This document shows, one piece after another, positions 1 to 14,073 of a DNA stretch of 20,386 nt. This DNA comes from a virus: the IMG/VR virus record IMGVR_UViG_3300032242_001000, positions 1-20,386 of that record; one strand, 5' to 3'. Within the stretch, counting starts at the first letter, position 1; the number at the start of each line of letters is the position of its first letter. Both the position numbers and the translations under genes were made by a program. Under the pieces are notes generated by a model. It was not told the DNA's origin and did no database searches. It saw only the letters and a list, made by a program, of their open reading frames with translations.

Positions 1-2244
1 ACCGGTCGTGCATGGTCAAGTTTTGATGGTTTATACACAACTAGTAATGTAAGTCCTTATGTTCAAGCCGCTTATGCTCAGGCAAATACCAATTCTGGTA
101 CTACTGCATTAGCACAAGCAGCTTTTAACCAAGCAAACGCTGCCAACATATTAGCTTCATCGGCATATTCTAGTGCTAACGCCAATATCATTTATTTGTT
201 GGCTATTTCTCAAGCGCAAAATGCCAACGTATCAGGAATAAACACATATTCAACTTCAGCGTATGCTTATGCCAATTCTTTAAATACATTTGTTTCATCT
301 GCTTATTCACAGGCAAATAATGCAACTGGTGCTAATGCACTAGCACAAGCAGCGTTTGATAGAGCTAATGCGGCTAACATATTAGCTTCTTCTGCTTATG
401 CAAATTCTAATTCTGTAAGCATTTATTCCATATCTTCTTACAATAGTTCAAATGCGGTCAGCACTTATTCTATATCTGCTTACAATAGTTCAAATGCGGT
501 AAGCACTTATTCAACATCAGCATATAATTATGCTAATAACGTTAATACTTTTGCGCAAGCAGCTTTTGCTCAAGCTAACACACAAGTTGGTTCTGGCAAC
601 TTAGCACAAGCGGCTTTTGATAGAGCAAACTCAGCCAACGTTTTAGCACAATCTTCATATAATTTTGCTAATGCTGTAAGCACCTATTCACAATCAGCAT
701 ATTCAACTGCTAACGGTATTAGTGCATATGCAACGTCAAGTTATTCAACTGCAAATGCGGTTAATTTACTAGCAATATCTGCTTATTCAAATTCTAATTC
801 TGTAAGCACCTATTCACAATCTGCATATACGACAGCTAACGGAGCAAACGGTTTAGCACAATCTGCATACAACAGAGCAAATACATATGCAGGAACTTTT
901 TCAAATAATTCAGGTTACTTAGCAAATACAGTTTTAGTTTCTAATACAACTGGTTTTATTTCAGTTTCTTCTAATATACAATTTTACAACACAAATAGTA
1001 CCTTTATTACCGCTAACGTATATGCAACAAGTGCATTTATATTCCCGGATGGTTCAATACAAACAACTTCTGCTGTTAGTGCTTCATCTAATACCGTTCT
1101 ACTTAAAGGTGCTTTAGATGCGGCTAATGCCAATATTGCTTTATTGTTTGCTTATAGTTTAGCATCAAATGCTAATACTTCTAGTTTAAATACCTATTCA
1201 ACATCAGCATATAATTATTCTAATAACGTTAATAGTTTTACACAGTCAGCATACAATTCAGCAAATAGTAAAGCAAGTTCAACAGGTTATCAAGCAAACT
1301 CGTTCATTTATGTAAATCAAGCGGGCACCATTACAACAACATCACCAATTGTATATGCGGCAAGTAACACCACAACAACTATTACAGGCACAGCAAACGT
1401 AACATCTAATGTCTATATTGCAGGTTCTCTGTTTGTTACAGGTGGTTTTACTGACGGTACACAAGTTTCAATAACTGGCAATACAATTGGTGGTAGCACG
1501 TTATCATATTCAAATATTGTTAGAATAACAAATACAACATCTTCAATATCAAATACTACTGGTGCATTGATTGTTTCTGGTGGTGTTGGTGTAACAGGAA
1601 ACATATACACAGGTAATCATTACATTACAGGTACAGGAAATGGTATTACGTTTGTTGATGGAACAACACAAACTACATCATTCATTGGTCCTTTAAATAC
1701 TGCTAACGCTAATATTTCATACATTTTAACATACGGATTAGCCGCTAATGCTAATATGTCTGCTATTAACACCTATGCAGCTTCTGCTTACAATAAAGCA
1801 AATACGGCAGGTGGCGGTGGTGTTGTTATTACTGATGACACAACAACAAATGCTTCTCGTTATCCTATATTGAGTATTTCAACTTCAGGAACGGCATCTA
1901 CCGGTAATACGTCTAGCACAAAACTATACTTTAACCCTTCTACCGGAACATTAAGTTCAACAATATTTAATTCTCTGTCAGATGAAAACCAAAAAACAAA
2001 TATACAATTAATACCAAATGGTTTACAAATTGTAGAAAATTTAAAAGGTGTTACATTTGATTTCATTGATGGTGAAGTTCCTTCTGCTGGTATTTTAGCA
2101 CAAGATGTTGAGAAATGGTTACCACAATTAATTAATAATGAAAATGGCAACAAAACATTAAACTACAATGGTATCATTGGTGTGTTAGTTGAAGCCGTAA
2201 AAGAATTATCTGAGAGAGTGAAAGCCCTTGAGAAGATTAAATGA
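1..2244 (+). CDS. Tail fibre with S74 intramolecular chaperone domain (5' partial)
   Basis: The frame is open from base 1, so the gene begins upstream; 747 residues are visible. A TTG at 196 could mimic a start, but the same repeat pattern continues upstream of it. Residues about 20-295 are Ala/Ser/Asn/Tyr-rich 14-residue repeats (SAYxxANxVSTYSQ-like, with AQAAFDRAN variants). Fibre motifs FPDGSIQTTS (348-357) and FVDGTTQTTS (551-560) follow. The last 88 residues begin with SDENQK and fit the peptidase S74 family, which helps fibres trimerise and then cleaves itself off. S660 and K665 have the five-residue spacing of the family's Ser-Lys dyad. The gene overlaps the next start by four bases (ATGA). 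The role as a trimeric fibre acting in host adsorption is inferred from the family; the S74 call is firm. Confidence 0.88.
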   Translation, partial: TGRAWSSFDGLYTTSNVSPYVQAAYAQANTNSGTTALAQAAFNQANAANILASSAYSSANANIIYLLAISQAQNANVSGINTYSTSAYAYANSLNTFVSSAYSQANNATGANALAQAAFDRANAANILASSAYANSNSVSIYSISSYNSSNAVSTYSISAYNSSNAVSTYSTSAYNYANNVNTFAQAAFAQANTQVGSGNLAQAAFDRANSANVLAQSSYNFANAVSTYSQSAYSTANGISAYATSSYSTANAVNLLAISAYSNSNSVSTYSQSAYTTANGANGLAQSAYNRANTYAGTFSNNSGYLANTVLVSNTTGFISVSSNIQFYNTNSTFITANVYATSAFIFPDGSIQTTSAVSASSNTVLLKGALDAANANIALLFAYSLASNANTSSLNTYSTSAYNYSNNVNSFTQSAYNSANSKASSTGYQANSFIYVNQAGTITTTSPIVYAASNTTTTITGTANVTSNVYIAGSLFVTGGFTDGTQVSITGNTIGGSTLSYSNIVRITNTTSSISNTTGALIVSGGVGVTGNIYTGNHYITGTGNGITFVDGTTQTTSFIGPLNTANANISYILTYGLAANANMSAINTYAASAYNKANTAGGGGVVITDDTTTNASRYPILSISTSGTASTGNTSSTKLYFNPSTGTLSSTIFNSLSDENQKTNIQLIPNGLQIVENLKGVTFDFIDGEVPSAGILAQDVEKWLPQLINNENGNKTLNYNGIIGVLVEAVKELSERVKALEKIK
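373..885 (+). repeat. 42-bp (14-residue) tandem repeats in the fibre gene
   Basis: Eleven units of 14 codons run in register from 373 (ANILASSAYANSNS), 415, 457, 499 and 541, then resume at 634, 676, 718, 760, 802 and 844. They are interrupted once, at 583-633, by a 17-codon variant (QVGSGNLAQAAFDRANS). The consensus is roughly (V/A)SxYxxSAYxxANx. Neighbouring units are nearly identical in DNA: the segment starting CTTACAATAGTTCAAATGCG at 437 recurs at 479. Two heptads per unit suggest a coiled or fibrous trimer shaft. Degenerate units occur on either side (1-372 and about 1177-1270). Confidence 0.85.
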
Positions 2245-3383
2245 CGACAGGAAATCCTTCTAATTTTTTAAAAGATGATTCAGTCACAGGACAATTAGAT
2301 TTAGATGATGAATATGTAACAGAGTCCTGGTTATTGGAACAGTATGTGGGTAATAATCTTTTCGGACAAGGTTATAATCCAAATGGAGGAATAGGCAATG
2401 GAAATACTACTAGTTTTTCTTCTCCGATTCAAATAGGTAGTTTAACAAATTGGAAGCAAATTGCACAAGGATATGGCCACACCAAAGCAATTAAAACTGA
2501 CGGAACATTATGGTCATGGGGGCAAGATGGATATATTGGTGCTTCTCTTTCTCCCGTTCAAGTAGGAACATCAACTAACTGGAGACAGATTGCGTGTTCA
2601 GGTACTACTTTTGCCTTAACTAACCAAGGAGCTCTGTATTATTTTCAAACTTCTTCTCCTACTCAAATTGGTTCTTTAACCAATTGGAAATCAATTTCGT
2701 CTAGCAGGCTTCACCAAGCAGCTATAAAAACTGACGGTACTTTATGGACATGGGACAACAGCGGAAGCACAGGAAATAATTCTTATGGTGAATTAGGTTT
2801 AGGAAACACGAACGAATATTCTTCTCCAGTTCAAGTAGGTTCTTTAACGAATTGGAAACAAGTTCAAACATTTCATTATCACACACTTGCCATAAAAACA
2901 GATAACACACTATGGGCATGGGGTAGAAATACAGAAGGTCAATTAGGTTTAGGAGATACAACCAATCGTTCTTCTCCTGTTCAAGTTGGTTCTCTAAATG
3001 ATTGGAAACAATTACCTGTAGGTTGTGGTTTTGCAACATACTTTTCTGCTGTTATAAAAACTGATGGTACACTATGGACTTCTGGATATAATAGTTCAGG
3101 TCAATTAGGTTTAGGAAATACGACCGGTCGTTCTACGTTTACACAAGTAGGAAATTCTTCAAATTGGAAACAAGTTTGTTGCGGACAATATGGAATGTCA
3201 GCCACTAAAACTGATGGTACCGCATGGTCATGGGGTGACAATGGTACTGGTGGTGAACTAGGTTTAGGAGACCAAGTTAATCGTTCATCACCTACTCAAA
3301 TTGGTACAATGACAATTTGGAAACAAGCAGCACTTGGTACTAGCGTTATGCATATGACCACTTTCAACGATATAGGACTTTAA
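2241..3383 (+). CDS. RCC1-like seven-bladed beta-propeller protein, N-terminal type A (copy 1)
   Basis: 380 residues. The N-terminal module (1-40) has FLKDDSVTG, DLDDEY and ESWLLEQYVGN, and is shared with the gene at 3387. The rest is seven RCC1-type repeats, each following the pattern [25 protein letters not shown], a variable loop, then [12 protein letters not shown]. I count seven W-(K/R) strands (NWKQIA, NWRQIA, NWKSIS, NWKQVQ, DWKQLP, NWKQVC, IWKQAA). Blades 2 and 3 are shortened, and blade 2 has lost the KTDGTLW strand (TNQGALYYF). It ends FNDIGL. RCC1 repeats fold as a seven-bladed propeller. In a phage late operon directly behind a fibre, a virion surface or receptor-binding role is likely but not shown. 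No signal peptide or membrane segment is seen. Its start codon overlaps the fibre stop. Confidence 0.85.
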   Translation: MTTGNPSNFLKDDSVTGQLDLDDEYVTESWLLEQYVGNNLFGQGYNPNGGIGNGNTTSFSSPIQIGSLTNWKQIAQGYGHTKAIKTDGTLWSWGQDGYIGASLSPVQVGTSTNWRQIACSGTTFALTNQGALYYFQTSSPTQIGSLTNWKSISSSRLHQAAIKTDGTLWTWDNSGSTGNNSYGELGLGNTNEYSSPVQVGSLTNWKQVQTFHYHTLAIKTDNTLWAWGRNTEGQLGLGDTTNRSSPVQVGSLNDWKQLPVGCGFATYFSAVIKTDGTLWTSGYNSSGQLGLGNTTGRSTFTQVGNSSNWKQVCCGQYGMSATKTDGTAWSWGDNGTGGELGLGDQVNRSSPTQIGTMTIWKQAALGTSVMHMTTFNDIGL

Positions 3384-3386
3384 TAT

Positions 3387-4577
3387 ATGCCAACATATTC
3401 ACCTTCTAATTTTCTCAAAGATGATCCAATAACTGGCACTACAGATTTATTTGATGAGTATATGTCAGATTCATGGTTAGTGGAACAGTTTGTCGGTAAT
3501 AGTTTATTAACTTGCGGGTATTCAAGAGGTGGTACTTTGGGTATTGGAGATTCTGCAGGTAATGTTCATTATTCATCTCCTGTTCAAGTTGGAAGTTTAA
3601 ATAATTGGAAACAAGTAGCTTGTGGTTATGCAACTATGTTAGGAATTAAAACAGATGGATCATTATGGGGTTGGGGATTTAATGTCAGCGGAGAATTGGG
3701 TAATGCTTCGGGTGCTTCGTATTCTTCTCCCGTTCAAATAGGAGCATTAACTAATTGGAAACAGATTTCTTTAGACAACAGCAGTTATGCAATTAAAACA
3801 GACGGAACATTATGGTCTGCCGGTGTTAATGGTAATGGTCAACTAGGTATCGGAAGCACTACGGCACAAAATTCTTGGGTGCAAATAGGTTCATTAACTG
3901 GTTGGAAACAAGTTGCGGCAGCAAAATACGCTATGACCGCTATTAGAAATGACGGAACACTATGGGCGTGTGGTTATAATACTTATGGAAATTTGGGGCA
4001 AAATGATAGAACATCACGGTCTAGCCCGGTTCAAATTGGTGCATTAACCAATTGGAAACAAGTATCGGGAGGAACTCCATTTCAACCATTTTGGGTAGCT
4101 ACTAAAACTGACGGAACATTATGGGGTTGTGGGTACAATCAAGCAGGAACTTTAGGTATTGCAAATAATCAGGACGTTTCTTCTCCTGTTCAAGTTGGTT
4201 CATTAACTAACTGGAAACAAGTTTCGGCCGGAGGTCAGCATTGTCTTGCAATTAAAACAGACGGAACATTATGGTCATGGGGTACCAACACCTATGGTCA
4301 ATTAGGCAATGGAAATTCTACAGGATTTTCTAGTCCGATCCAAATAGGAAGTTTAACTAACTGGAAACAAGTATCAGCAGGAAGAACATCATCATCAGCA
4401 ATTAAAGCAGATGGAACATTATGGACGTGGGGGTATGGGCAGTATGGCCAATTAGGTAATGGAACATCAGGATTAGTTTCTTCTCCAATACAAGTTGGAA
4501 GTTTAACTAATTGGAGATATATAGCGCTTAATAGGACTTCTTGGGGTGCGGTAACCTTCAATGACATTGGTTTTTAA
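3387..4577 (+). CDS. RCC1-like seven-bladed beta-propeller protein, N-terminal type A (copy 2)
   Basis: 396 residues, a paralogue of the gene at 2241. The N-terminus SPSNFLKDDPITG, FDEYMSDSWLVEQFVGN aligns with that of copy 1 without gaps, and the C-terminus FNDIGF matches FNDIGL. Seven propeller repeats are visible, with W strands NWKQVA, NWKQIS, GWKQVA, NWKQVS (three times) and NWRYIA. All carry versions of the [12 protein letters not shown] strand, so this copy is more regular than copy 1. Three bases separate it from the upstream stop, and its likely Shine-Dalgarno (AGGA) lies inside the upstream gene's last codons, so translation is probably coupled. A late promoter for the next gene follows immediately. 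Adhesin or decoration function is inferred; the propeller fold is well supported. Confidence 0.86.
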   Translation: MPTYSPSNFLKDDPITGTTDLFDEYMSDSWLVEQFVGNSLLTCGYSRGGTLGIGDSAGNVHYSSPVQVGSLNNWKQVACGYATMLGIKTDGSLWGWGFNVSGELGNASGASYSSPVQIGALTNWKQISLDNSSYAIKTDGTLWSAGVNGNGQLGIGSTTAQNSWVQIGSLTGWKQVAAAKYAMTAIRNDGTLWACGYNTYGNLGQNDRTSRSSPVQIGALTNWKQVSGGTPFQPFWVATKTDGTLWGCGYNQAGTLGIANNQDVSSPVQVGSLTNWKQVSAGGQHCLAIKTDGTLWSWGTNTYGQLGNGNSTGFSSPIQIGSLTNWKQVSAGRTSSSAIKADGTLWTWGYGQYGQLGNGTSGLVSSPIQVGSLTNWRYIALNRTSWGAVTFNDIGF

Positions 4578-4587
4578 TATAATATAA

Positions 4588-4595
4588 TATAAATA
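4588..4595 (+). promoter_or_regulatory. T4-type late promoter (TATAAATA)
   Basis: An exact match to the T4 late promoter octamer TATAAATA lies in the 40-base gap between the second RCC1 gene and the DUF4376-like gene, 22 bases upstream of the start codon. It should drive that gene and the RCC1 genes after it. T4 late promoters are read by host RNA polymerase with the gp55 sigma factor and the sliding clamp; neither gene is in this window. Confidence 0.75.
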
Positions 4596-4617
4596 CTTTA
4601 TAAAAAGAGGATATAAA

Positions 4618-5331
4618 ATGATTAAGTATGTTTTTGTTCAAAATCGTAAAACGATATTATTAGGTCCATTTTTCTGGTCCAAATATAGAACATTCCAATC
4701 GGAGTGTGATGAGTTATTTGAAAACGGAGATTTATCTACTGAATTTAAAATTCCTTCTGAAGAACAAGGATACATCAACATAGGTGAAGGATTTGAAATA
4801 TTTCCTTTAACTGAAAGCACAGGTACAGTTCATCTTGATATGTTTGAAGAACCTGTAGGACCTTATTATAGTTTTGTTGGTAAAGAAGCCAAAGAAAGTT
4901 ATTCGGCTAAAGAGTTACCAATAGAATCAGTTAGAATCAATCTTAAAAAAGTTGTATCTGCTGAAAGATATAATAGAGAAAATTTAAGAACAACAATATA
5001 TGTGGGTAATTCCAGTATTTCTGTTGGTACTGATAGAAATGCTAGAATATATTACTCATCATTACTAACTGGTATTGGTGATTCTCCTATTAATTATAAG
5101 AGTAGTAATGGGTTTATTTCATTAACAGGTGAAGATTTAAAAACTATTGTTGATGGTATTTACTCTTATGTGCAAGAACAATTCAATTGGGAAAAATCTA
5201 TGTCGGAATTAATTGATTCTACAGATTCAGTTGAAGGTCTCAAATCAGTATTAACAACAATACGACCAATAACACCACCAACTCCTTTCACGATACCAAA
5301 TATTCCGGTTGAACCACAAGAAGGTATTTAA
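4618..5331 (+). CDS. DUF4376-like tail-associated protein
   Basis: 237 residues, with its own late promoter and a good ribosome site (AAGAGG, 4605-4610). It has no RCC1 repeats although it sits inside the RCC1 array. Residues about 125-215 resemble the phage DUF4376 domain: an arginine/isoleucine strand, a strand ending FISLTGEDLKTIVDGI, then YVQEQFNWEKSMSELIDS and a short helix (VEGLKSVL). DUF4376 proteins usually lie next to tail fibre genes and are thought of as fibre-associated or assembly factors, but their biochemical role is not established. The C-terminus (about 215-237) is proline-rich (PITPPTPFTIPNIPVEP), probably an extended tail. The N-terminal 110 residues I do not recognise. The stop codon abuts the start of the next gene with no gap, so the two are co-translated. 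Confidence 0.65.
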   Translation: MIKYVFVQNRKTILLGPFFWSKYRTFQSECDELFENGDLSTEFKIPSEEQGYINIGEGFEIFPLTESTGTVHLDMFEEPVGPYYSFVGKEAKESYSAKELPIESVRINLKKVVSAERYNRENLRTTIYVGNSSISVGTDRNARIYYSSLLTGIGDSPINYKSSNGFISLTGEDLKTIVDGIYSYVQEQFNWEKSMSELIDSTDSVEGLKSVLTTIRPITPPTPFTIPNIPVEPQEGI

Positions 5332-6558
5332 ATGCCTGTTAACGGACCAAAAACTGGATTTTCTGTAACCGATCCAAACACAGGAACTTCAACTGATATA
5401 GGTAATACTTTAATTAGTAAAGATTACCTACTCAGCATCTATCCTAATATTGCTAGTCAAACAGGTAATAGAACAAGTCCAGGTTTTTGGACGTGGGGGT
5501 ACGGCCAACAAGGTCAATTAGGAAGCGGTAGTGGTATAGGTACTACTTGGTCATCACCAGTTCAAATAGGAGCATTAACTAATTGGAAACAGGTTAGTTG
5601 TGGCTACAATTTCGGAGGTTCAATAAAAACTGACGGCACTTTATGGATGTGTGGTTACGGTTTAAATGGTCAATTGGGTTTTGGAGGTACTACTACGATA
5701 GCTCCTATCCAACAACTCGGCGCATTGACAGATTGGAGTAAACTTGCCTGTGGTTATTATGCTACCTATGCAATAAAAACCAATGGTACACTGTGGGCCT
5801 GGGGACTTAATAGTGCGGGAGAATTAGGGTTAAACGACACATCAAATCGTAATTCTCCTGTTCAAATAGGAGCGTTAAACAATTGGAAACAGGTTGCTTC
5901 GCATAGTAGAGCTATGTTTGCCATCAAGAATGACGGAACTCTATGGAGTTGTGGTAATAATAATAGTGGTTCATTAGGCAATGGTAATACTACGAATTAT
6001 TCTAGTCCTATTCAAATAGGTAGTTTAACAAATTGGAAACAGGTTGTTGGAGGTACTTTCAATGCTGTTGCTGTTAAAACTGATGGAACATTATGGTCAT
6101 GGGGTTCTAATAGTAACGGTGAATTAGGATTAGGAAATACTACAAATTATTCTTCTCCTGTTCAAGTTGGTTCATTAACTTCTTGGAAATTTGTTTCTGC
6201 AGGCCATACCACTACGGGTCCACAAACAGCAGCTATTAAAACAGATGGAACACTATGGGCATGGGGTAGTAATAATTACGGTCAATTAGGTTTAGGTGAT
6301 ACAACTAATCGTTCCAGTCCTGTTCAAATTGGTTCGTTAACCAATTGGAAATATGTTTCGTGTCGTGGACCTGGTATGTTAGCAATTAAAACTGATGGAA
6401 CACTATGGGCATGGGGAAGAGGTGGTACAACTGGCCAATTAGGATTAGGAAATAATACAAATTATTCTTCTCCTGTTCAAGTTGGTTCATTAACTTCTTG
6501 GAAACAAGTAGAAACACATTATCAATTAACTTATGCAATCCAAGACGGATACATATAA
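5332..6558 (+). CDS. RCC1-like seven-bladed beta-propeller protein, N-terminal type B (copy 1)
   Basis: 408 residues. The N-terminal module is type [34 protein letters not shown], shared almost residue for residue with the gene at 7774. Seven RCC1-type repeats follow; W strands are NWKQVS, DWSKLA, NWKQVA, NWKQVV, SWKFVS, NWKYVS and SWKQVE. It ends TYAIQDGYI, and the other type B copy ends SIAIQDGYI. Blades 5 and 7 share a 68-base DNA segment with one mismatch, a sign of recent intragenic duplication or conversion. The start codon directly follows the upstream stop, with AAGAAGG just before it. The propeller fold is confident. A virion-surface or receptor-binding role is inferred from position and from family expansion. 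Confidence 0.86.
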
Positions 6559-6906
6559 ACTATGGCAAAATTTCCTTCAGGTTATCAATTTCCCATACTA
6601 GATTCTTCTGGTGCTCCTACTAGTACCATAGTGGATGTAGCCGATATGTTTGCTCGTAAAGAATTATTTTTAAATTCTGGATTGTGGGCATGGGGAGAAA
6701 ATACATATGGTCAATTAGGTTTAGGAAATACTACATCATATTCTTCTCCTGTTCAAGTGGGAAGTTTAACGAATTGGAAACAAATATCCATGGGATACTA
6801 TTCTAATTTGGGCATAAAAACAGATGGCACATTATGGTCATGGGGATGGAATTTTCAAGGAGAATTAGGGTTAAACGACACATCAAATCGTAATTCTCCT
6901 GTTCAA
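5818..6906 (+). repeat. Exact 48-bp segment shared between adjacent RCC1 genes
   Basis: Bases 5818-5865 (type B copy 1) and 6859-6906 (type C copy 1) are identical over 48 bases, encoding the [14 protein letters not shown] stretch. The surrounding sequence differs, so this looks like a short exchange between two paralogous genes rather than conservation of the whole region. Only the two ends of the given interval are the repeat. Confidence 0.8.
6122..6504 (+). repeat. Near-identical 68-bp repeats in two blades of the type B copy 1 gene
   Basis: Positions 6122-6189 and 6437-6504 (315 bases apart, about two blades) are the same except for one base, including synonymous positions. Both encode the stretch from LGLGN to LTSWK of blades 5 and 7. 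Confidence 0.85.
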
Positions 6907-7755
6907 GTGGGAAGTTTAACGAATTGGAAACAAATTAGCAATGGATCGTATTCTATATTAGCAATTAAAACTGACGGAACACTATGGGCATGGGGACTTA
7001 ATGATAAAGGTCAATTAGGTTTAGGAAATACTACACCATATTCTTCTCCTGTTCAAGTGGGAAGTTTAACGAATTGGAAAACCGTCTCATGCGGTTATAC
7101 AACTGCGGTTGCAATTAAAACTGACGGAACATTATGGGCATGGGGCCAAAATGCGTATGGCGGATTAGGTCTAGGAAATACTACATCATATTCTTCTCCG
7201 ATTCAGGTTGGGTCTTTAACTGGTTGGAAATCTGCTATATCAATTAATAATGCATTTGTTGCAATCAAGACAGATGGTACACTATGGTCATGTGGGTATA
7301 ATGCTAGCGGACAATTAGGTTTAGGAAATACTACACCATATTCTTCTCCTGTTCAAGTGGGAAGTTTAACGAATTGGAAACAGATTTCTCCAAGTGCCGG
7401 ATATTCTTCCCGATTCTATCATGCAATAAAGACTGATGGAACACTATGGGGATGGGGTTATAATGCTAGCGGACAATTAGGTTTAGGAGACCTAAACAGT
7501 CGTTCTTCTCCCGTTCAAGTAGGATCATTAACCAACTGGAAACAGATAAGTTCCTCATATGCCGGGAATGTGGCCGCTGTCAAAACTGACGGAACATTAT
7601 GGGCATGGGGTGATAATAATAGTGGTGAAAACGGACAAAATGACCGTGGAGTTATTCGTTCTTCTCCTGTTCAAGTAGGAAGTTTATCAAATTGGAAATT
7701 CGTTTCCTCTAGCTCCGAATCTTGTTTGGCAATCCAAGCTCCTGATTTACCTTAA
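6562..7755 (+). CDS. RCC1-like seven-bladed beta-propeller protein, N-terminal type C (copy 1)
   Basis: 397 residues. The N-terminal module is type C: GYQFPILDSSGAPTSTIVD, ADMFARKELFLNS, shared with the gene at 8986. Seven repeats are visible: W strands NWKQIS, NWKQIS, NWKTVS, GWKSAI, NWKQIS, NWKQIS and NWKFVS. This is the most regular propeller in the window; most blades carry a perfect [12 protein letters not shown] or close variant. Blades 1, 3 and 5 share 69 bases that are identical (blades 3 and 5) or differ at one base (blade 1), at exact 300-base spacing. Three bases separate it from the upstream stop. It ends LAIQAPDLP, unlike the AIQDGYI of type B. Function is inferred as for the other members. 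Confidence 0.86.
   Translation: MAKFPSGYQFPILDSSGAPTSTIVDVADMFARKELFLNSGLWAWGENTYGQLGLGNTTSYSSPVQVGSLTNWKQISMGYYSNLGIKTDGTLWSWGWNFQGELGLNDTSNRNSPVQVGSLTNWKQISNGSYSILAIKTDGTLWAWGLNDKGQLGLGNTTPYSSPVQVGSLTNWKTVSCGYTTAVAIKTDGTLWAWGQNAYGGLGLGNTTSYSSPIQVGSLTGWKSAISINNAFVAIKTDGTLWSCGYNASGQLGLGNTTPYSSPVQVGSLTNWKQISPSAGYSSRFYHAIKTDGTLWGWGYNASGQLGLGDLNSRSSPVQVGSLTNWKQISSSYAGNVAAVKTDGTLWAWGDNNSGENGQNDRGVIRSSPVQVGSLSNWKFVSSSSESCLAIQAPDLP
6712..7380 (+). repeat. 300-bp-spaced 69-bp repeats in blades 1, 3 and 5 of the type C copy 1 gene
   Basis: Positions 7012-7080 and 7312-7380 are identical over 69 bases, and 6712-6780 differs from them at one base (codon TCA against CCA). The exact 300-base spacing equals two blades, so the gene appears to have grown, or been homogenised, in two-blade steps. 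Part of the same segment (GTTCAAGTGGGAAGTTTAAC) also occurs at 6901 in blade 2. Confidence 0.9.
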
Positions 7756-7773
7756 TTTTCTATGAGTGAATAA

Positions 7774-8982
7774 ATGCCTGTTACTGGACCAAAAACTGGA
7801 TTTACTGTAATAGACCCTAGTTCAGGATTACCTGTAGACTTGGGTAATAGATACATCAGCAAAGATTATCTTTTAACTGTTTATCCTAATATTGCAGGCC
7901 AATTAGGTGTTAGAAAAAGTTCTGGATTATGGGGCGCTGGTAGAAATTTTTATAACGAATTAAGCACTCCAACTAATGTTGCTTATTCCTCTCCAATTCA
8001 AATAGGAAGTCTAACCAATTGGAAACAAATTAGTGCATCAGGTCATATACTTGGTATTAAAACTGACGGAACACTATGGGCATGGGGTAGTAATGCTAGT
8101 GGTCAGCTAGGTTTAGGTGATATAACAAATCGTTCAACGCCAGTTCAGGTAGGCTCACTAACTAATTGGAAACAGGTTTCGTGTCTTGATAGCCATGTGC
8201 TAGCAATTAAAACTGATGGAACACTATGGACATGGGGACAAAACAATTACGGTCAACTAGGTATAGGAAGTACAACCTATTTTTCTTCTCCCGTCCAAGT
8301 TGGTAGTTTGACAACATGGAAACAAGTAAGTGTTGGTGTCGGATTTAGTTCTTTTGCAATTAAAACTGATGGCACACTATGGGCTTGGGGATTTAATAAT
8401 ATTGGTCAACTAGGTTTAGGAGATATAACTAATAGACTTTCACCCGTTCAAATTAGCGGCTATCCATGGAAGCAAATTGCTACAGGTTCAGGACATACTG
8501 TCGGTATTTATGGAGCCGGAGCTTTATATGCATGGGGACAAAATAGCAGTCAACAATTAGGCCTTGGTTTTAATAGCACAAATTATTCTCTTCCTGTTCA
8601 AGTAGGAAGTTTAACTAATTGGAAATCACTTTCGGTTGGCGGGAGTTCTAGTTTAGCGATTAAGACTGATGGTACATTATGGGCTTGGGGTGATAATACT
8701 TATGGGCAATTAGGTAAAAACGATGTAATTAGTGGAAATAGTCCAGTGCAAATAGGTAATTTGACTAATTGGAAATCTGTTATTATGGGGGGTTACTATA
8801 ATGGTTTAGCAATTAAAACCGATGGTACATTGTGGTCTTGGGGAGATAATAATTATGGCCAATTAAGTTTAGGAAATACTACAAGATATTCTTCACCGGT
8901 TCAGATTGGTTCTCTAACAAGTTGGAAATCAATTTCTTGTGGGTACAGAACTTCTATAGCAATCCAAGACGGGTATATATAA
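7774..8982 (+). CDS. RCC1-like seven-bladed beta-propeller protein, N-terminal type B (copy 2)
   Basis: 402 residues. The N-terminus GPKTGFTVIDPSSG, DLGNRYISKDYLLTVYPNIA matches the gene at 5332, and so does the C-terminus AIQDGYI. Seven repeats: W strands NWKQIS, NWKQVS, TWKQVS, PWKQIA, NWKSLS, NWKSVI and SWKSIS. Blade 4 is divergent: PVQISGYPWK replaces the usual [11 protein letters not shown], and IYGAGALYAWG replaces [11 protein letters not shown]. An 18-base gap precedes it, the largest among the B and C genes, and holds the tiny in-frame string ATGAGTGAATAA directly before the start. This copy and the following type C gene together repeat the preceding B-C pair. Propeller fold confident; role inferred. 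Confidence 0.86.
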   Translation: MPVTGPKTGFTVIDPSSGLPVDLGNRYISKDYLLTVYPNIAGQLGVRKSSGLWGAGRNFYNELSTPTNVAYSSPIQIGSLTNWKQISASGHILGIKTDGTLWAWGSNASGQLGLGDITNRSTPVQVGSLTNWKQVSCLDSHVLAIKTDGTLWTWGQNNYGQLGIGSTTYFSSPVQVGSLTTWKQVSVGVGFSSFAIKTDGTLWAWGFNNIGQLGLGDITNRLSPVQISGYPWKQIATGSGHTVGIYGAGALYAWGQNSSQQLGLGFNSTNYSLPVQVGSLTNWKSLSVGGSSSLAIKTDGTLWAWGDNTYGQLGKNDVISGNSPVQIGNLTNWKSVIMGGYYNGLAIKTDGTLWSWGDNNYGQLSLGNTTRYSSPVQIGSLTSWKSISCGYRTSIAIQDGYI

Positions 8983-8985
8983 TTC

Positions 8986-10233
8986 ATGGCCATAACATCA
9001 GGTTACAAATTTCCCATTTTAGATTCTTCTGGTAATCCTACTAGTACCATAGTAGATATGGCAGATATGTTTATTCGTAAAGAATTATTTTTAACTAGTA
9101 GTTTATATGCTTCTGGAAATAATTCTTATGGTCAATTAGGTATATCAAGTACCACAAATGTTAGTTTTCCTGTTCAAGTAGGTTCATTAACCAATTGGAA
9201 ACAAGTGTCTATAAATAAAACCGGTTATGATGGTACCAAATTTAGATACGGATCGTTAGCAATTAAAACTGATGGCACATTGTGGTATTGGGGTAATGGA
9301 TATTATGCACAAGACGGTCTATTACAAGGTCAAAGTCTAACCAATACTCCACCTTCAACAGGTATATTATCACCAGTTCAAATAGGAACTGCATCTAATT
9401 GGAAACAGGTTGAGATTAATTATTTAAATGCTGCTGCAATAGATACCAAAGGACAAATATATTTTTGGGGATATAATAGTTCTGGTGAGTTTGCTCTACT
9501 GAGTGGTTTTTACACAAATAGTGGAGTCGGTTATTACTCTTTGGGTCCAACCGCTTCAACTCATCCTTTATTGAAAACATTCAGTTTAGGTGGTGGTTGG
9601 TTTCACGGAATAACTATTGAAGGATATTTGTTTACATCTGGCTCTAATAATAATGGCCAATTAGGTTTAGGAGATACTACCAACAGAACGGGAGCCACTC
9701 AAGTTGGTGCATTAAATAATTGGAAACAAATAAGTTCTGGTTATATCGGAAATGTACTTGCAATTAAAACTGATGGAACACTATGGGCATGGGGATATAA
9801 CACTTACGGTCAATTAGGTTTAAATGATATCGTTTCTCGCTCTTCTCCCGTTCAAGTAGGAAGTTTATCAAATTGGAAACAAGTTTCTGCTGGAGACTAC
9901 AGCGGTTTTGCAATAAAAAATGATGGCACTCTGTGGGCATGGGGCAATAATGGTAGTGGCCAATTAGGTATAGGTGATACAACCAATCGTTCTAGTCCCG
10001 TTCAAGTTGGTTCTTTGACAAATTGGAAGCAAGTAAGTGGTGGTGATTTTAATGTTCAAGCAATTAAAACTGACGGAACACTATGGGCATGGGGTTATAA
10101 TTTAGGCGGTCAATTAGGTTTAGGTGATACAATCAATCGTTCCAGTCCTGTTCAAGTAGGTTCATTAACTAATTGGAAACAAACATCAATTTGCGAAGCT
10201 AGTTTTATTGGAATTTCATCAAGCGATTTATAG
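8986..10233 (+). CDS. RCC1-like seven-bladed beta-propeller protein, N-terminal type C (copy 2)
   Basis: 415 residues, the longest of the six. The N-terminus GYKFPILDSSGNPTSTIVD, ADMFIRKELFLTS matches the gene at 6562. Six canonical W strands are present (NWKQVS, NWKQVE, NWKQIS, NWKQVS, NWKQVS, NWKQTS). The third blade is degenerate: around residues 175-215 the W-K strand is replaced by LLKTFSLGGGW, and the KTDGTLW strand by TIEGYLFTSG. Blades 1 and 2 carry longer inserts than usual. It ends FIGISSSDL. It is the last gene of the propeller array; its stop is followed within five bases by a late promoter for the accessory operon. The long loops make this the most divergent copy, as expected if loops define binding specificity, which is inference. 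Confidence 0.85.
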   Translation: MAITSGYKFPILDSSGNPTSTIVDMADMFIRKELFLTSSLYASGNNSYGQLGISSTTNVSFPVQVGSLTNWKQVSINKTGYDGTKFRYGSLAIKTDGTLWYWGNGYYAQDGLLQGQSLTNTPPSTGILSPVQIGTASNWKQVEINYLNAAAIDTKGQIYFWGYNSSGEFALLSGFYTNSGVGYYSLGPTASTHPLLKTFSLGGGWFHGITIEGYLFTSGSNNNGQLGLGDTTNRTGATQVGALNNWKQISSGYIGNVLAIKTDGTLWAWGYNTYGQLGLNDIVSRSSPVQVGSLSNWKQVSAGDYSGFAIKNDGTLWAWGNNGSGQLGIGDTTNRSSPVQVGSLTNWKQVSGGDFNVQAIKTDGTLWAWGYNLGGQLGLGDTINRSSPVQVGSLTNWKQTSICEASFIGISSSDL

Positions 10234-10283: not shown

Positions 10284-11060
10284 TTGAACAAAAAATACCA
10301 TCTTATCTCTGGTTTACCACGTTCTGGTACCACGTTACTTTCAACAATACTGAAACAAAATCCAAGGTTTGAAGCGTCCATCTCAGGACCACTTGCTCGG
10401 TTTGTTCGTGCTATTATCACCGAATCTTCAACACAAGGAGGTTATCGTTTTGAATGTCCTCCGGATAAACGTAAAAAGTTAATTTCTGGTTTATTTGACA
10501 ATTATTATGATGACGAAACAAAAGAAGTAGCGTTCAATACCAATCGTGGCTGGGGTTTATTATTACCAACAATTAAAGATTTATATCCTGAATCTAAAGT
10601 ATTAATGTGTGTTCGTGATATTGGTTGGATACTTGATTCATTTGAAACACTACAAAGAAAAAACCCATATACTTTTACCACAATGTTTGCGCCTGACGAA
10701 AACATCAATGTATATACCAGATGCGAGACACTATTGAATCCTGGTAAAACTCTTGGATTTGCGTATAACGCACTCAAGCAAGCAATCACAGGTGAACATA
10801 AACAATCTATCATGATAATTGATTACGACACGCTAGCAAAAGATCCTGAGATGATGATGAAAGCAATCTATAGTTTTATTGATGAGCCTTATTACCAACA
10901 TGACTTTGATAATGTAGAGGCATCATATGACGAGTTTGATGAAGATGTTCAATTACCCGGTTTACATACAACAAGAAAAAAAGTGGAATATATTCAAAGG
11001 GAATCTATTCTACCGCCTGATATCTGGCAAAGAGTTCAAAATATGGAGGTTTGGAAATGA
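10284..11060 (+). CDS. PAPS-dependent sulfotransferase
   Basis: 258 residues, TTG start. Residues 9-19 read SGLPRSGTTLL, the 5'-phosphosulfate-binding loop of sulfotransferases. R111 and S119 in CVRDIGWILDSFE have the eight-residue R-to-S spacing of the 3'-phosphate-binding motif. Both PAPS contacts are therefore present, and the length fits a full small sulfotransferase domain. The enzyme would move sulfate from PAPS to a hydroxyl, usually of a sugar or small molecule; the acceptor cannot be told from sequence. No signal or membrane segment, so it should act in the host cytoplasm. It is first in an operon with a methyltransferase, a glycosyltransferase-like gene and an APS-kinase-like gene that could supply PAPS. 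Its stop overlaps the next start (ATGA). Confidence 0.85.
   Translation: MNKKYHLISGLPRSGTTLLSTILKQNPRFEASISGPLARFVRAIITESSTQGGYRFECPPDKRKKLISGLFDNYYDDETKEVAFNTNRGWGLLLPTIKDLYPESKVLMCVRDIGWILDSFETLQRKNPYTFTTMFAPDENINVYTRCETLLNPGKTLGFAYNALKQAITGEHKQSIMIIDYDTLAKDPEMMMKAIYSFIDEPYYQHDFDNVEASYDEFDEDVQLPGLHTTRKKVEYIQRESILPPDIWQRVQNMEVWK
11045..11049 (+). promoter_or_regulatory. Shine-Dalgarno GGAGG that decides the methyltransferase start
   Basis: GGAGG lies seven bases before the ATG at 11057 but only one base before the in-frame TTG at 11051. The ATG is therefore the likely start, giving a protein that begins MKVNLGSG. Confidence 0.75.
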
Positions 11061-11638
11061 AAGTGAATTTAGGAAGCGGTTACAGAAGAATAGAAGGATT
11101 TGTGAATGTTGATGATGACCCACTTTGTGAGCCAGAATATCTCGTAAATCTTGAAAAAGATAAGTTGCCATTTGAAGATAATTCGGTGGAAGAAATGATT
11201 GCTCATCATATCTTGGAACACATTGGTGAAGGATTTATTCCTTTGATGCAAGAGATTTATCGTGTGTGTAAGCATGGTGCTATTATTGATATTCGTGTAC
11301 CACATCCTACACATGAATTATTTCTAAATGACCCAACACACAAGCGACCTATCATGGTTGAAGGTATGAGATTGTTTAGTAAAAAATATATGGACGAACA
11401 TTTAAAAACAATTCGTTCAAGTTCAGGCATGGCATATAAGTTTAATGTAGACTTTGAAATTGTTTATTACAATTATATCTACGACACATTTTACCATTCA
11501 ATGATTGAGAGTTTTGTTAAACGGCAGTCAGAAGGTAAAACTTCAAAAGAAGAAGAATGGGCATTTGAAAGATTATTCCGTGAAGCGAATAATGTAGCAA
11601 TGGAAACTGAAATTAAATTAGTGGTGATAAAAGAATGA
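11057..11638 (+). CDS. SAM-dependent methyltransferase (class I, small)
   Basis: 193 residues from the ATG at 11057; an in-frame TTG at 11051 is too close to the ribosome site. Motif I is VNLGSG (3-8), the glycine-rich SAM-binding loop. The acidic strand FVNVDDDP (15-22) follows, then LPFEDNSVEEMIAHHILEHI (37-56), typical of Methyltransf_11-type enzymes that often act on small molecules or sugars. The C-terminal half is helical, with an EEEWAFERLF stretch, and has no other recognisable domain. The substrate is unknown. It overlaps the sulfotransferase stop and the next start by four bases on each side, so the three genes are translationally coupled and probably act on the same product. Glycan O-methylation is one plausible role. 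Confidence 0.8.
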   Translation: MKVNLGSGYRRIEGFVNVDDDPLCEPEYLVNLEKDKLPFEDNSVEEMIAHHILEHIGEGFIPLMQEIYRVCKHGAIIDIRVPHPTHELFLNDPTHKRPIMVEGMRLFSKKYMDEHLKTIRSSSGMAYKFNVDFEIVYYNYIYDTFYHSMIESFVKRQSEGKTSKEEEWAFERLFREANNVAMETEIKLVVIKE

Positions 11639-13062
11639 TAGACAAATACCAAACAGATAATCCTTTAGCAATGGTGATTGAATTTTTAGAAAAACAAAAT
11701 AAAGATTCTTTAGCAAGTGATGTGATTGATGTGTTTGCTGATGTAACACAACAAGCCGCAGAAAATAATCAACACGCTGTTGCACTTGAACAGTTTAATT
11801 TAATAGCTAAACTTTATTTGGATGTTAGAAATATTCCTAAAGCAGAAAAGTTTGCATTGCGTGTTCTAGGTATGTCAAACACCAAAGAACAAACCTATAA
11901 TGCTCGTGCCAATTTAGGTAAACTTTATAACAATGTGAATCAACCTGAAAAGGCTTTGTTTCATTCTAAGTTAAATAATATTGCTTTTCCTAATGACCCC
12001 GATACATTGATGGAAATGGTATTTTCATATTATCTATTGGCACAAAAAGAAGAAGCAGAAAAAATCTTAAGATTTCTAAAAGAAAATGAAGATAAGTTAA
12101 GTGAAAGACACCAAGATATTGTGAATTTCAATTTAGGTACTTATGACTTAGAAAAAGGAAAGTTTAATGAAGGCCTAAGAGGATTTATGTTAAAAGGAAA
12201 GAAACTAAAACTTTGGTTCTCTCATCGTGAATTACCATATAAGTTTTGGGATGGTGGTGCTTTTCCTGGTAAAACTTTAATTCTCTTTGCTGAAGGTGGT
12301 GGTATCGGTGATGAGATGTTAAGTATTCGTTTTATGGATGACCTAAAGGCAATTGGATTTAAACCATTATTTTATACATCAAGAAAAGATTTATGTGATT
12401 TATTTAATCAAAACGGTTACGAAACAATTATGAATTTAGATGGTGTTCCTAAAGATGCTATGTGGACTTACTTCATGCAGGTACCAATTTATCTGAATTC
12501 AAAACCAGAAAAAGTTCTTCGTGAAAAATATTTGTTACCTAACCAAGAAGCAAGAGACAAATGGAGTTTCATTAAAGAATCCAAGAAAATAAAAATTGGT
12601 ATTCGTTGGCAAGGTAACTCTAAAAATGAAAGAGACTTACATCGTAAAGTACCACTTGATGATATCATGCGTTATGTAAATCAATTTAAAACGGATGACA
12701 TTGAATTGTATTCATTACAAATAGGTGACGGCATTGAAGAAATACAAAAGTATCCTGAATTGATTGATGTTTCTGATAAAATACAATCTTATAACGACAC
12801 ACTAGCATTACTAGAAAATTTAGATTATGTAATCACCTCATGTACTTCTGTGTTACACGCAGCTGCTGCTGTTGGAACAAAAACGTTGGCATTAATTCCT
12901 ATTTCTGCTTACTTTACTTGGGTTAGTCCACCAACAACAGGTCGTCCTGAAAATACAAGCATTTGGTATGGTGATAATTTGAGAGTTTTTAAACAATCAG
13001 TTCCTCATTCTTGGAACGAACCACTTGTTGAATTAATTGATTACTTGAAAGCTGAACTATGA
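11635..13062 (+). CDS. TPR-domain, GT-B glycosyltransferase-like protein
   Basis: 475 residues. Residues about 1-190 are helical with TPR-like spacing (AKFALRVLGMS, ARANLGKLYNNVNQPEKALF, FNLGTYDLEKGKFNEGLRGF). Residues about 200-475 resemble the GT9/heptosyltransferase-like GT-B fold seen in many bacterial TPR glycosyltransferases: FAEGGGIGDE (218-227) as the first Rossmann loop, IGIRWQGN (321-328) starting the second, then YNDTLALLENLDYVITSCTS (386-405) and LHAAAAVG (407-414) with H408, and a WYGDNLRVFKQ end. In relatives the second domain binds the nucleotide sugar. Donor and acceptor are unknown. In the sulfotransferase and methyltransferase operon it could build or bind the glycan they decorate. 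Both gene ends overlap their neighbours by four bases. Confidence 0.75.
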   Translation: MIDKYQTDNPLAMVIEFLEKQNKDSLASDVIDVFADVTQQAAENNQHAVALEQFNLIAKLYLDVRNIPKAEKFALRVLGMSNTKEQTYNARANLGKLYNNVNQPEKALFHSKLNNIAFPNDPDTLMEMVFSYYLLAQKEEAEKILRFLKENEDKLSERHQDIVNFNLGTYDLEKGKFNEGLRGFMLKGKKLKLWFSHRELPYKFWDGGAFPGKTLILFAEGGGIGDEMLSIRFMDDLKAIGFKPLFYTSRKDLCDLFNQNGYETIMNLDGVPKDAMWTYFMQVPIYLNSKPEKVLREKYLLPNQEARDKWSFIKESKKIKIGIRWQGNSKNERDLHRKVPLDDIMRYVNQFKTDDIELYSLQIGDGIEEIQKYPELIDVSDKIQSYNDTLALLENLDYVITSCTSVLHAAAAVGTKTLALIPISAYFTWVSPPTTGRPENTSIWYGDNLRVFKQSVPHSWNEPLVELIDYLKAEL

Positions 13063-13877
13063 AAAAAATATTGATTATGGGATTACCAGGTTCTGGTAAA
13101 ACAACGTTAGCAAAAGCATTAAAAGATTATCTTGAAGAATGTTCTGTTACCTATTTGGAAATGATGCCTCTTTTTAAAAAAGTTTCTTGGTTTAATGCTG
13201 ATGAAGTCCGAAAAAAATATAATGATTGGGATTTTTCAGATATGGGTCGTATTCGCCAATCATTAAGGATGGCACAATTTGCATTAGAATCTGGTGGTGA
13301 TTATGTCATTTGTGATTTTGTGGCACCTTTAGTTGAAATGAGAAACAACTTCAAAGCAGATTGGACTATTTGGATGGATACAATAGATAAAGGTCGTTTT
13401 GAAGATACTAACAAAGCATTTATTCCTCCAGACCGTTACGACTTTAGAATTACGGAACAGAACGCAGAGAAGTGGGCTGAGTTTATTGGTGAACGTATCA
13501 TTAAAGATATTAGGCGTCCTGAATTTGATTGGAGAAAAGAGACTGTTCAAATGTTAGGTAGATGGCAACCATGGCATGAAGGTCATCGTGCATTGTTTGA
13601 GAGAGCGATTAAAAAAACAGGCCAAGTAATTATTCAAATTCGTGACTGTCAAGGCTGGCAAGGTTCTAATCCTTTTGCAATTGAACAAGTTAAATCTTTT
13701 ATTAAAAGAGATTTGGATCCTTTGTATCAAGGTCAATATGAAATACAAATTGTTCCCAATATTGTTAACATCACATATGGTCGTGACGTAGGATACAAGA
13801 TTGAACAAGAAATATTTGATGAAGCAATACATTCTATTTCTGCAACTAAAATCCGTAAGGAGATGGGAATTGAGTGA
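13059..13877 (+). CDS. Bifunctional APS-kinase-like P-loop kinase / HxGH nucleotidyltransferase
   Basis: 272 residues in two domains. The N-terminal P-loop kinase has Walker A GLPGSGKTT (8-16), NADEVR (46-51), FSDMGRIRQSLRM and CDFVAPLVEMR, which match the order of motifs in adenylylsulfate (APS) kinase; APS kinase makes PAPS from APS and ATP. From about residue 163 a nucleotidyltransferase domain follows, with GRWQPWHEGH (167-176; HxGH 173-176) and the ISATKIR signature (260-266). This resembles the cytidylyltransferase-like superfamily, which includes NMN adenylyltransferases and, more distantly, ATP sulfurylase. If the second domain makes APS the protein would be a small PAPS synthase, but its motif is closer to NadM-like enzymes, so this is open. 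The downstream sulfotransferase substrate need makes the kinase role credible. Confidence 0.75.
   Translation: MKKILIMGLPGSGKTTLAKALKDYLEECSVTYLEMMPLFKKVSWFNADEVRKKYNDWDFSDMGRIRQSLRMAQFALESGGDYVICDFVAPLVEMRNNFKADWTIWMDTIDKGRFEDTNKAFIPPDRYDFRITEQNAEKWAEFIGERIIKDIRRPEFDWRKETVQMLGRWQPWHEGHRALFERAIKKTGQVIIQIRDCQGWQGSNPFAIEQVKSFIKRDLDPLYQGQYEIQIVPNIVNITYGRDVGYKIEQEIFDEAIHSISATKIRKEMGIE
13857..13862 (+). promoter_or_regulatory. Shine-Dalgarno AAGGAG supporting a TTG start
   Basis: AAGGAG inside the end of the kinase gene ends seven bases before the TTG at 13870. It places the start of the DUF2061 gene there rather than at codons further upstream, which would overlap the kinase heavily. Confidence 0.75.
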
Positions 13878-14073
13878 TACAAATGTAAGAAGTTTAGCAA
13901 AGGCTATATCATGGAGAGTTACTGGTACTATTGATACTTTTATCATTTCTTGGCTAATAACAGGCCAAATTTTATTGGCATCTGGTATTGCATTTACTGA
14001 AATAATGACAAAAATAATTTTATTCTGGTTACACGAAAGGGTATGGAATAAAATTCAATGGGGTAAATCCTAA
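13870..14073 (+). CDS. DUF2061-family small membrane protein
   Basis: 67 residues from a TTG start with an ideal ribosome site. The sequence RSLAKAISWRVTGT (7-20), a TGxxxLAxGI-like centre and LHERVWNKIQWG (54-65) are the hallmarks of DUF2061. Two hydrophobic segments (about 17-31 and 34-54) make it a small inner-membrane protein. The family's function is not known. In bacteria DUF2061 genes are often found near sulfate assimilation genes (cysteine and APS/PAPS steps), and some family members are fused to APS kinase, an association I recall rather than have tested. That would fit its place directly after an APS-kinase-like gene. It overlaps the kinase by eight bases and ends 38 bases before gp16. 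Confidence 0.75.
   Translation: MSDTNVRSLAKAISWRVTGTIDTFIISWLITGQILLASGIAFTEIMTKIILFWLHERVWNKIQWGKS

Follow-up and report, generated by a model that had tools for sequence, protein, structure and literature searches.

A probable viral sulfation gene cassette encoding a candidate compact PAPS synthetase

The five-gene cassette and its sulfotransferase

The window, i.e., the whole stretch of DNA analyzed, is a 20.4-kb virus record (20,386 nucleotides) featuring T4-like late genes. Genes encoding the small and large terminase subunits and a tail-tube protein are located within 14.1–20.4 kb, along with sheath-like and portal-like genes called from their translations, while RCC1-repeat and tail-fibre-type genes were found upstream. 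Between the RCC1-repeat tail genes on one side and the terminase on the other, five co-directional, overlapping genes occupy positions 10284–14073 (plus strand). In order, they encode a PF13469 sulfotransferase (hereafter ST), a methyltransferase-like protein, a TPR/GT9-like protein, a fused kinase and nucleotidyltransferase (hereafter KNT) and a DUF2061 membrane protein. Scanning the window against Rfam and for tRNAs gave no matches, and a promoter scan performed no better than on shuffled sequences. Further upstream, six RCC1-repeat proteins, interrupted by one DUF4376-like tail gene, are encoded at positions 2241–10233. RCC1 genes were also observed near KNT in 47 of 81 KNT loci, comprising the window and the best 80 of at least 598 viral relatives.

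The ST gene (10284–11060; 258 aa) possesses a TTG start codon and an AGGAG ribosome site. Its product matched PF13469 with 52.9 bits (E=8e-14; cut-off 27). The 5'-phosphosulfate-binding motif (5'-PSB) SGLPRSGTT is located at residues 9–17 (10308–10334), and the 3'-phosphate-binding (3'-PB) pair R111 and S119 is encoded within 10614–10640. An alignment of 14 phage STs showed G10, P12, R13, S14, G15, T17, R111 and S119 to be invariant. Based on the PF13469 score, the conserved 5'-PSB motif and the 3'-PB R/S pair, the protein is regarded as a putative PAPS-dependent sulfotransferase. No relatives were retrieved from viral contigs with the single window ST as query; relatives were found when the aligned STs were used instead.

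The second gene (11057–11638) overlaps ST by an ATGA and encodes a SAM-dependent methyltransferase-like protein, the ATG at 11057 being the preferred start over a TTG at 11051. The third gene (11635–13062, ATG at 11635) encodes a TPR protein whose C-terminal half is GT9-like. Since the PF08241 match of the former is weak (23.3 bits, cut-off 21.2) and the GT9 match of the latter remains below its cut-off (12.6 versus 22 bits), the names methyltransferase-like and TPR/GT9-like were chosen. In about 35 of the 81 KNT loci, a relative of the TPR/GT9-like protein is fused behind ST within one ORF. An earlier note, prepared from the sequence alone, had described five overlapping genes, an ST with both PAPS-binding motifs, and methyl- and glycosyltransferase genes. 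The overlap of all five genes and both motifs were confirmed; the methyltransferase assignment holds weakly, and the glycosyltransferase assignment does not reach its threshold.

The fifth gene (13870–14073) encodes a small membrane protein assigned to DUF2061 (PF09834, 76 bits in the Pfam search), for which a TTG start at 13870, accompanied by AAGGAG, was preferred over 13801. Titles and abstracts of papers mentioning DUF2061 give no function for this family. In two viral loci (L273:6276–6893 and L275:11149–11766), a KNT-type kinase and DUF2061 form a single 205-aa ORF, and this fusion ties DUF2061 to sulfate activation.

Domain architecture of KNT

The fourth gene (13059–13877, ATG start) encodes the 272-aa KNT, consisting of an APS-kinase-fold domain (residues 1–152; 13059–13514) and an NMNAT/PPAT-type nucleotidyltransferase domain (residues 162–272; 13542–13874). 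The kinase domain features the P-loop GLPGSGKT, residues D48, R51, F59 and R64, and the motif DFVAP-x4-R95. It passes the Pfam APS_kinase cut-off (PF01583; 29.8 versus 21.1 bits) and scores far below that of the NCBIfam apsK equivalog (TIGR00455; 23.1 versus 138.7 bits). Because the APS_kinase match ends at about profile position 93 of 152, conservation does not extend to the canonical C-terminal lid of the kinase. Using a profile of 30 KNT relatives, the APS kinase 2yvu was the best solved-structure match (E=4e-9), and APS kinases were also the top Foldseek matches of the AF2 model of KNT (pLDDT 83, pTM 0.72). Structural alignment with VIA-align yielded Z values of about 17 for APS kinases (2.4 Å, about 140 residues), and gluconate kinase followed as the best other family with Z 14.7. 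The APS-kinase-like P-loop domain that the earlier note had placed three genes after ST is present; the C-terminal nucleotidyltransferase domain was overlooked there. KNT also spans the whole phrog_10255 model (E=1e-51), which is annotated only as 'kinase' with no sulfur link stated. With CysC (PF01583/TIGR00455), the kinase shares the P-loop, D48, R51, F59, R64, the (D)F-V-x-P-x4-R motif and the overall fold, but it lies far under the equivalog cut-off and its C-terminal third has diverged. Judged by the features tested, it merely resembles CysC and is placed outside that family.

Regarding the second domain, NMN adenylyltransferases matched KNT residues 165–230 in the profile of 30 relatives (E=6e-8). 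Modelled alone (pLDDT 89), the domain aligned with PPAT at Z 11.3 and with archaeal NMNAT at Z 10.2–10.3. Three motifs were recognized, namely the HxGH-type motif GRWQPWHEGH (residues 167–176; 13557–13586), YGRDVGY (residues 240–246; 13776–13796) and ISATKIR (residues 260–266; 13836–13856). The pattern GR-x-QP-x-H-x-GH, Q189, YGR-x-VGY and ISAT-x-IR is invariant in phage, SAR11, SAR116, Rhizobium and other relatives. The domain thus exhibits the fold and the hallmarks GRxQPxHxGH and ISxTxxR of NMN adenylyltransferases. However, the corresponding equivalog TIGR01527 was matched with 26.5 bits against a cut-off of 181.2, and the substrate-side NMNAT motif NPFTAGER reads NPFAIEQV in the window, with E and R replaced; in one relative (L102), NPF is absent altogether. 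Archaeal NMN adenylyltransferase, NadM and PPAT (CoaD) are closest to the domain in sequence and fold (1f9a, 1ej2, 2qjt, 5h16), from which it differs by its smaller size, the lost E and R of NPFTAGER and its other genomic company. On sequence and predicted fold, the KNT transferase is nearer to NMNAT/PPAT.

No match to the ATP sulfurylase Sat (PF01747) was found for the window KNT in the Pfam search, and profile searches revealed no match to the PP-loop ATPase CysD, the fold of the transferase being of the HxGH type. With Sat, the domain shares the HxGH superfamily, the GR(D) and IS(G/A)TxIR motifs and, in two relatives (L129 and L130), the position upstream of aprMBA, but it lacks PF01747, is only about 110 aa long and carries GRWQPWHEGH instead of the Sat motif TRNxPHxxH. 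Sat was also absent among the transferase structure matches listed, an absence that carries no weight against a relationship. Direct homology was considered; hhalign profile comparison gave a probability of 14%, which is not significant, and no homology to Sat is claimed. A divergent transferase paralogue (L132:4998–5357, genome G141) is located amid epimerase genes in a surface-glycan-type locus; it features a sub-threshold PF01747 match (19.6 bits) and lacks an equivalent of the conserved arginine R195 of KNT.

Viral and bacterial relatives

KNT is common in aquatic viruses, with at least 598 confirmed relatives, of which the best 80 show 75–85% identity. ST was detected by HMM in 60 of the 81 KNT loci (window included) and in 45 of the 48 viral loci among them with at least 6 kb of upstream sequence. 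One of the three exceptions (L040) harbors a divergent ST match below threshold (19.5 versus 27 bits), and in another (L016) a TauD-family gene lies directly upstream. This 342-aa TauD-family dioxygenase gene just before KNT was seen in two loci (L016:5737–6765 and L041:5966–6994), neither of which contains ST; the family assignment was tested by Pfam in L016, and the protein perhaps represents another sulfur-related partner of KNT. A set of 80 relatives of the window's TerL included three loci with both ST and KNT, none with one of them alone, and 77 with neither. This joint occurrence, never broken, indicates linkage beyond chance (Fisher p=1.2e-5, and p=1.3e-4 for loci with at least 4 kb upstream, both uncorrected for kinship of the loci); given just three positive loci, it lends support without settling the matter.

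Starting from ST, a set of 80 loci contained a full KNT in 12 cases, a kinase of the same family alone in about 14 (including the two DUF2061 fusions), an oxygenase-like protein whose kinase-like domain is degenerate in about 8, and none of these in the remainder. Taken together with the KNT-seeded counts, ST can therefore do without KNT, and KNT is rarely ST-less in these viruses. The oxygenase-like protein comprises about 310 aa and is encoded between ST and KNT or near ST (L021:6037–6999, L056:6016–6999, L264:11896–12819 and others). Its oxygenase-like N-terminal region is followed by a copy of the KNT kinase with a degenerate P-loop (GLPGSSRS and similar); no Pfam match was found for the L021 protein, which is possibly a pseudokinase partner. 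KNT relatives with 38–44% identity also occur in DLP6 and Casjensviridae phages, whose genomes contained no PF13469 ST when searched for this family, and those of Casjensviridae adjoin NADAR and MazG-like genes. These relatives without a PF13469 ST are the chief counter-evidence to PAPS synthesis by KNT for ST.

In bacteria, linkage to sulfotransferases recurs in other arrangements. Rhizobium sp. BK376 encodes a single 555-aa ORF composed of a PF03567 ST, PF01583 (55 bits) and CTP_transf_like; in a SAR116 genome (L090), KNT is followed by a PF00685 ST (90 bits), and in a Rhodospirillales genome, a PF03567 ST (29 bits) comes after the kinase and the transferase, which are encoded there by two distinct ORFs. 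The bacterial STs linked to KNT thus belong to PF00685 or PF03567, whereas PF13469 is the best family for the phage ST. Directly downstream of KNT in a second SAR116 locus (L091), no informative neighbor was found, and no ST or cys neighbor was recognized in the stretches examined around three full KNT fusions of alphaproteobacteria (L143–L145).

An assimilatory context was observed in one small alphaproteobacterial family of six genomes. Its representative operon (L149) encodes, on one strand, CbiX, a TP_methylase (CobA-type), sulfite reductase (NCBIfam PRK13504, 707 bits), CysH (PRK02090, 248 bits; best scored as phosphoadenylyl-sulfate reductase), DUF2061 directly adjoining cysH, the kinase and the transferase. 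The kinase-transferase pair adjoins cysH in five of the six genomes, i.e., in every one with cysH. Sat was detected in one of the six (G176) and CysD above cut-off in none, absences that, like the others described here, are soft because many genomes are drafts and may be incomplete assemblies. Weak CysD profile matches in G404 and G534 proved to be their CysH genes.

Further sulfur contexts were seen in the SAR11 order. The transferase was present in 111 of 147 sampled genomes of this order and Sat in 6. In two of them (L129 and L130), the transferase gene precedes, at a distance of 52–53 nt and on the same strand, an AprM-like gene with aprB and aprA behind it, and no kinase was found within the flanks examined; aprA scored above the NCBIfam cut-off in both, and aprB was tested in L130. 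In Allochromatium vinosum, sat is located immediately upstream of aprMBA (PMC3779200). Sat-type contexts, aprMBA or assimilatory, were accordingly seen in relatives (L129/L130 and L149) and not in the window. Where the kinase-transferase pair occurs close to aprBA in other SAR11 genomes, the two are mostly convergent and so do not form one operon; elsewhere in SAR11, the pair is found near a Sulf_transp gene (L121), or the transferase alone adjoins TauE (L128). Pelagibacter ubique was described as possessing AprBA, suggested to detoxify sulfite, but as lacking sat, cysDNCHIJ and phsABC, which had left the fate of APS in Pelagibacter unclear (PMC5069961). The few Sat-like genes found in SAR11-order and related genomes (L317, L319–L324) are situated beside pyruvate-kinase-like or surface-glycan-type genes, not beside aprBA or cys genes. 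Moreover, a conserved 116-aa protein is encoded after aprA in SAR11-order genomes (L130:9597–9947 and L096:8862–9212), for which neither a Pfam match (L096) nor an NCBIfam match (L130) was obtained.

Proposed function and competing explanations

The bacterial relatives represent the strongest evidence for a role in sulfate activation. The transferase occurs alone where only APS is handled, and the kinase accompanies it in contexts of PAPS consumption by CysH or sulfotransferases. Since ATP sulfurylase and APS kinase would give this very distribution, KNT is read as a two-step PAPS synthetase, and quite probably it is a compact enzyme of this type feeding ST within a portable five-gene sulfation cassette. 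From domains, motifs, predicted folds, linkage and gene fusions, we infer the activities, the direction of sulfate activation and the acceptor as follows. The C-terminal NMNAT/PPAT-type domain would convert ATP and sulfate to APS, i.e., ATP-sulfurylase chemistry performed by an unrelated family, and the N-terminal APS-kinase-fold domain would phosphorylate APS to PAPS. The neighboring ST would then use PAPS to sulfate an acceptor, which the TPR/GT9-like and methyltransferase-like proteins probably modify as well, and DUF2061 may serve as a membrane accessory of sulfate activation. The suggestion of the earlier note that the phage secures PAPS is well supported and is extended by the fused adenylyltransferase domain as candidate APS maker; the glycosylation and methylation proposed alongside it depend on weak matches, and the virion or host-surface target and late timing named in the note are speculative.

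An alternative, considered unlikely, is that KNT acts as an APS kinase on host APS, with the fused transferase employed otherwise, e.g., as a regulatory or salvage adenylyltransferase. The kinase-only relatives near ST indicate that a kinase alone can serve ST, and the proximity of the transferase to NMNAT/PPAT would suit a role other than that of a sulfurylase; against such a role, the transferase heads the aprMBA operon in L129 and L130 with no kinase beside it, and the kinase-transferase pair completes the cysI-cysH operon in genomes mostly devoid of Sat and CysD. Activation of a sugar or polyol by phosphorylation and subsequent nucleotide transfer, supplying glycan decoration by the TPR/GT9-like protein, is very improbable: several KNT loci are rich in glycosyltransferase, methyltransferase and epimerase neighbors, a paralogue resides in a surface-glycan-type locus and gluconate kinase ranks next among the fold matches, but the Z values of APS kinases are higher than those of gluconate kinases by over 2 units, and sulfur operons and ST fusion speak against it. 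The least probable reading, a NadR-like ribosyl-nicotinamide kinase and NMN adenylyltransferase replenishing NAD during infection with incidental ST linkage, draws on the NMNAT-type motifs and matches and on the NADAR gene beside Casjensviridae relatives, and was set aside because the kinase falls among the APS kinases, the NMNAT residues E and R (in L102 the entire NPF) are lost, and ST fusion as well as cysH and aprMBA operons would be left unexplained.

Among the single substrates considered, none other accounts for every context of KNT and its transferase. Besides the step proposed for its kinase, KNT very probably forms APS through the adenylyltransferase domain. KNT would work like Sat, CysDN and CysC in the proposed PAPS synthesis; it lies outside the Sat and CysDN families and is not filed under any of the three because their defining features, as tested, were not found. 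The animal-type PAPS synthetases PAPSS1/2 share with KNT the order of kinase first and HxGH-superfamily nucleotidyltransferase second, and the proposed product PAPS for sulfotransferases. In contrast, KNT comprises 272 aa compared to about 620, its second domain is NMNAT/PPAT-like without PF01747, and the lid region of its kinase is not conserved. A literature search, conducted mostly outside subscription papers, yielded no report naming the transferase or a phage PAPS synthetase.

It appears rather likely that the NMNAT/PPAT-type domain represents a new family of non-orthologous ATP sulfurylases, which includes the missing partner of AprBA in SAR11, and that the phage fusion is an unusually small PAPS synthetase by which sulfation no longer depends on sulfate-activating genes of the host. 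SAR11 bacteria, including Pelagibacter, are among the most abundant bacteria of the ocean. For them, the transferase provides a candidate of 115–130 residues for the missing enzyme, and the question can be reduced to one purified protein. For viruses, the KNT cassette suggests that many aquatic members supply their hosts, which may not possess such a system, with everything needed for sulfation, including the activation of sulfate.
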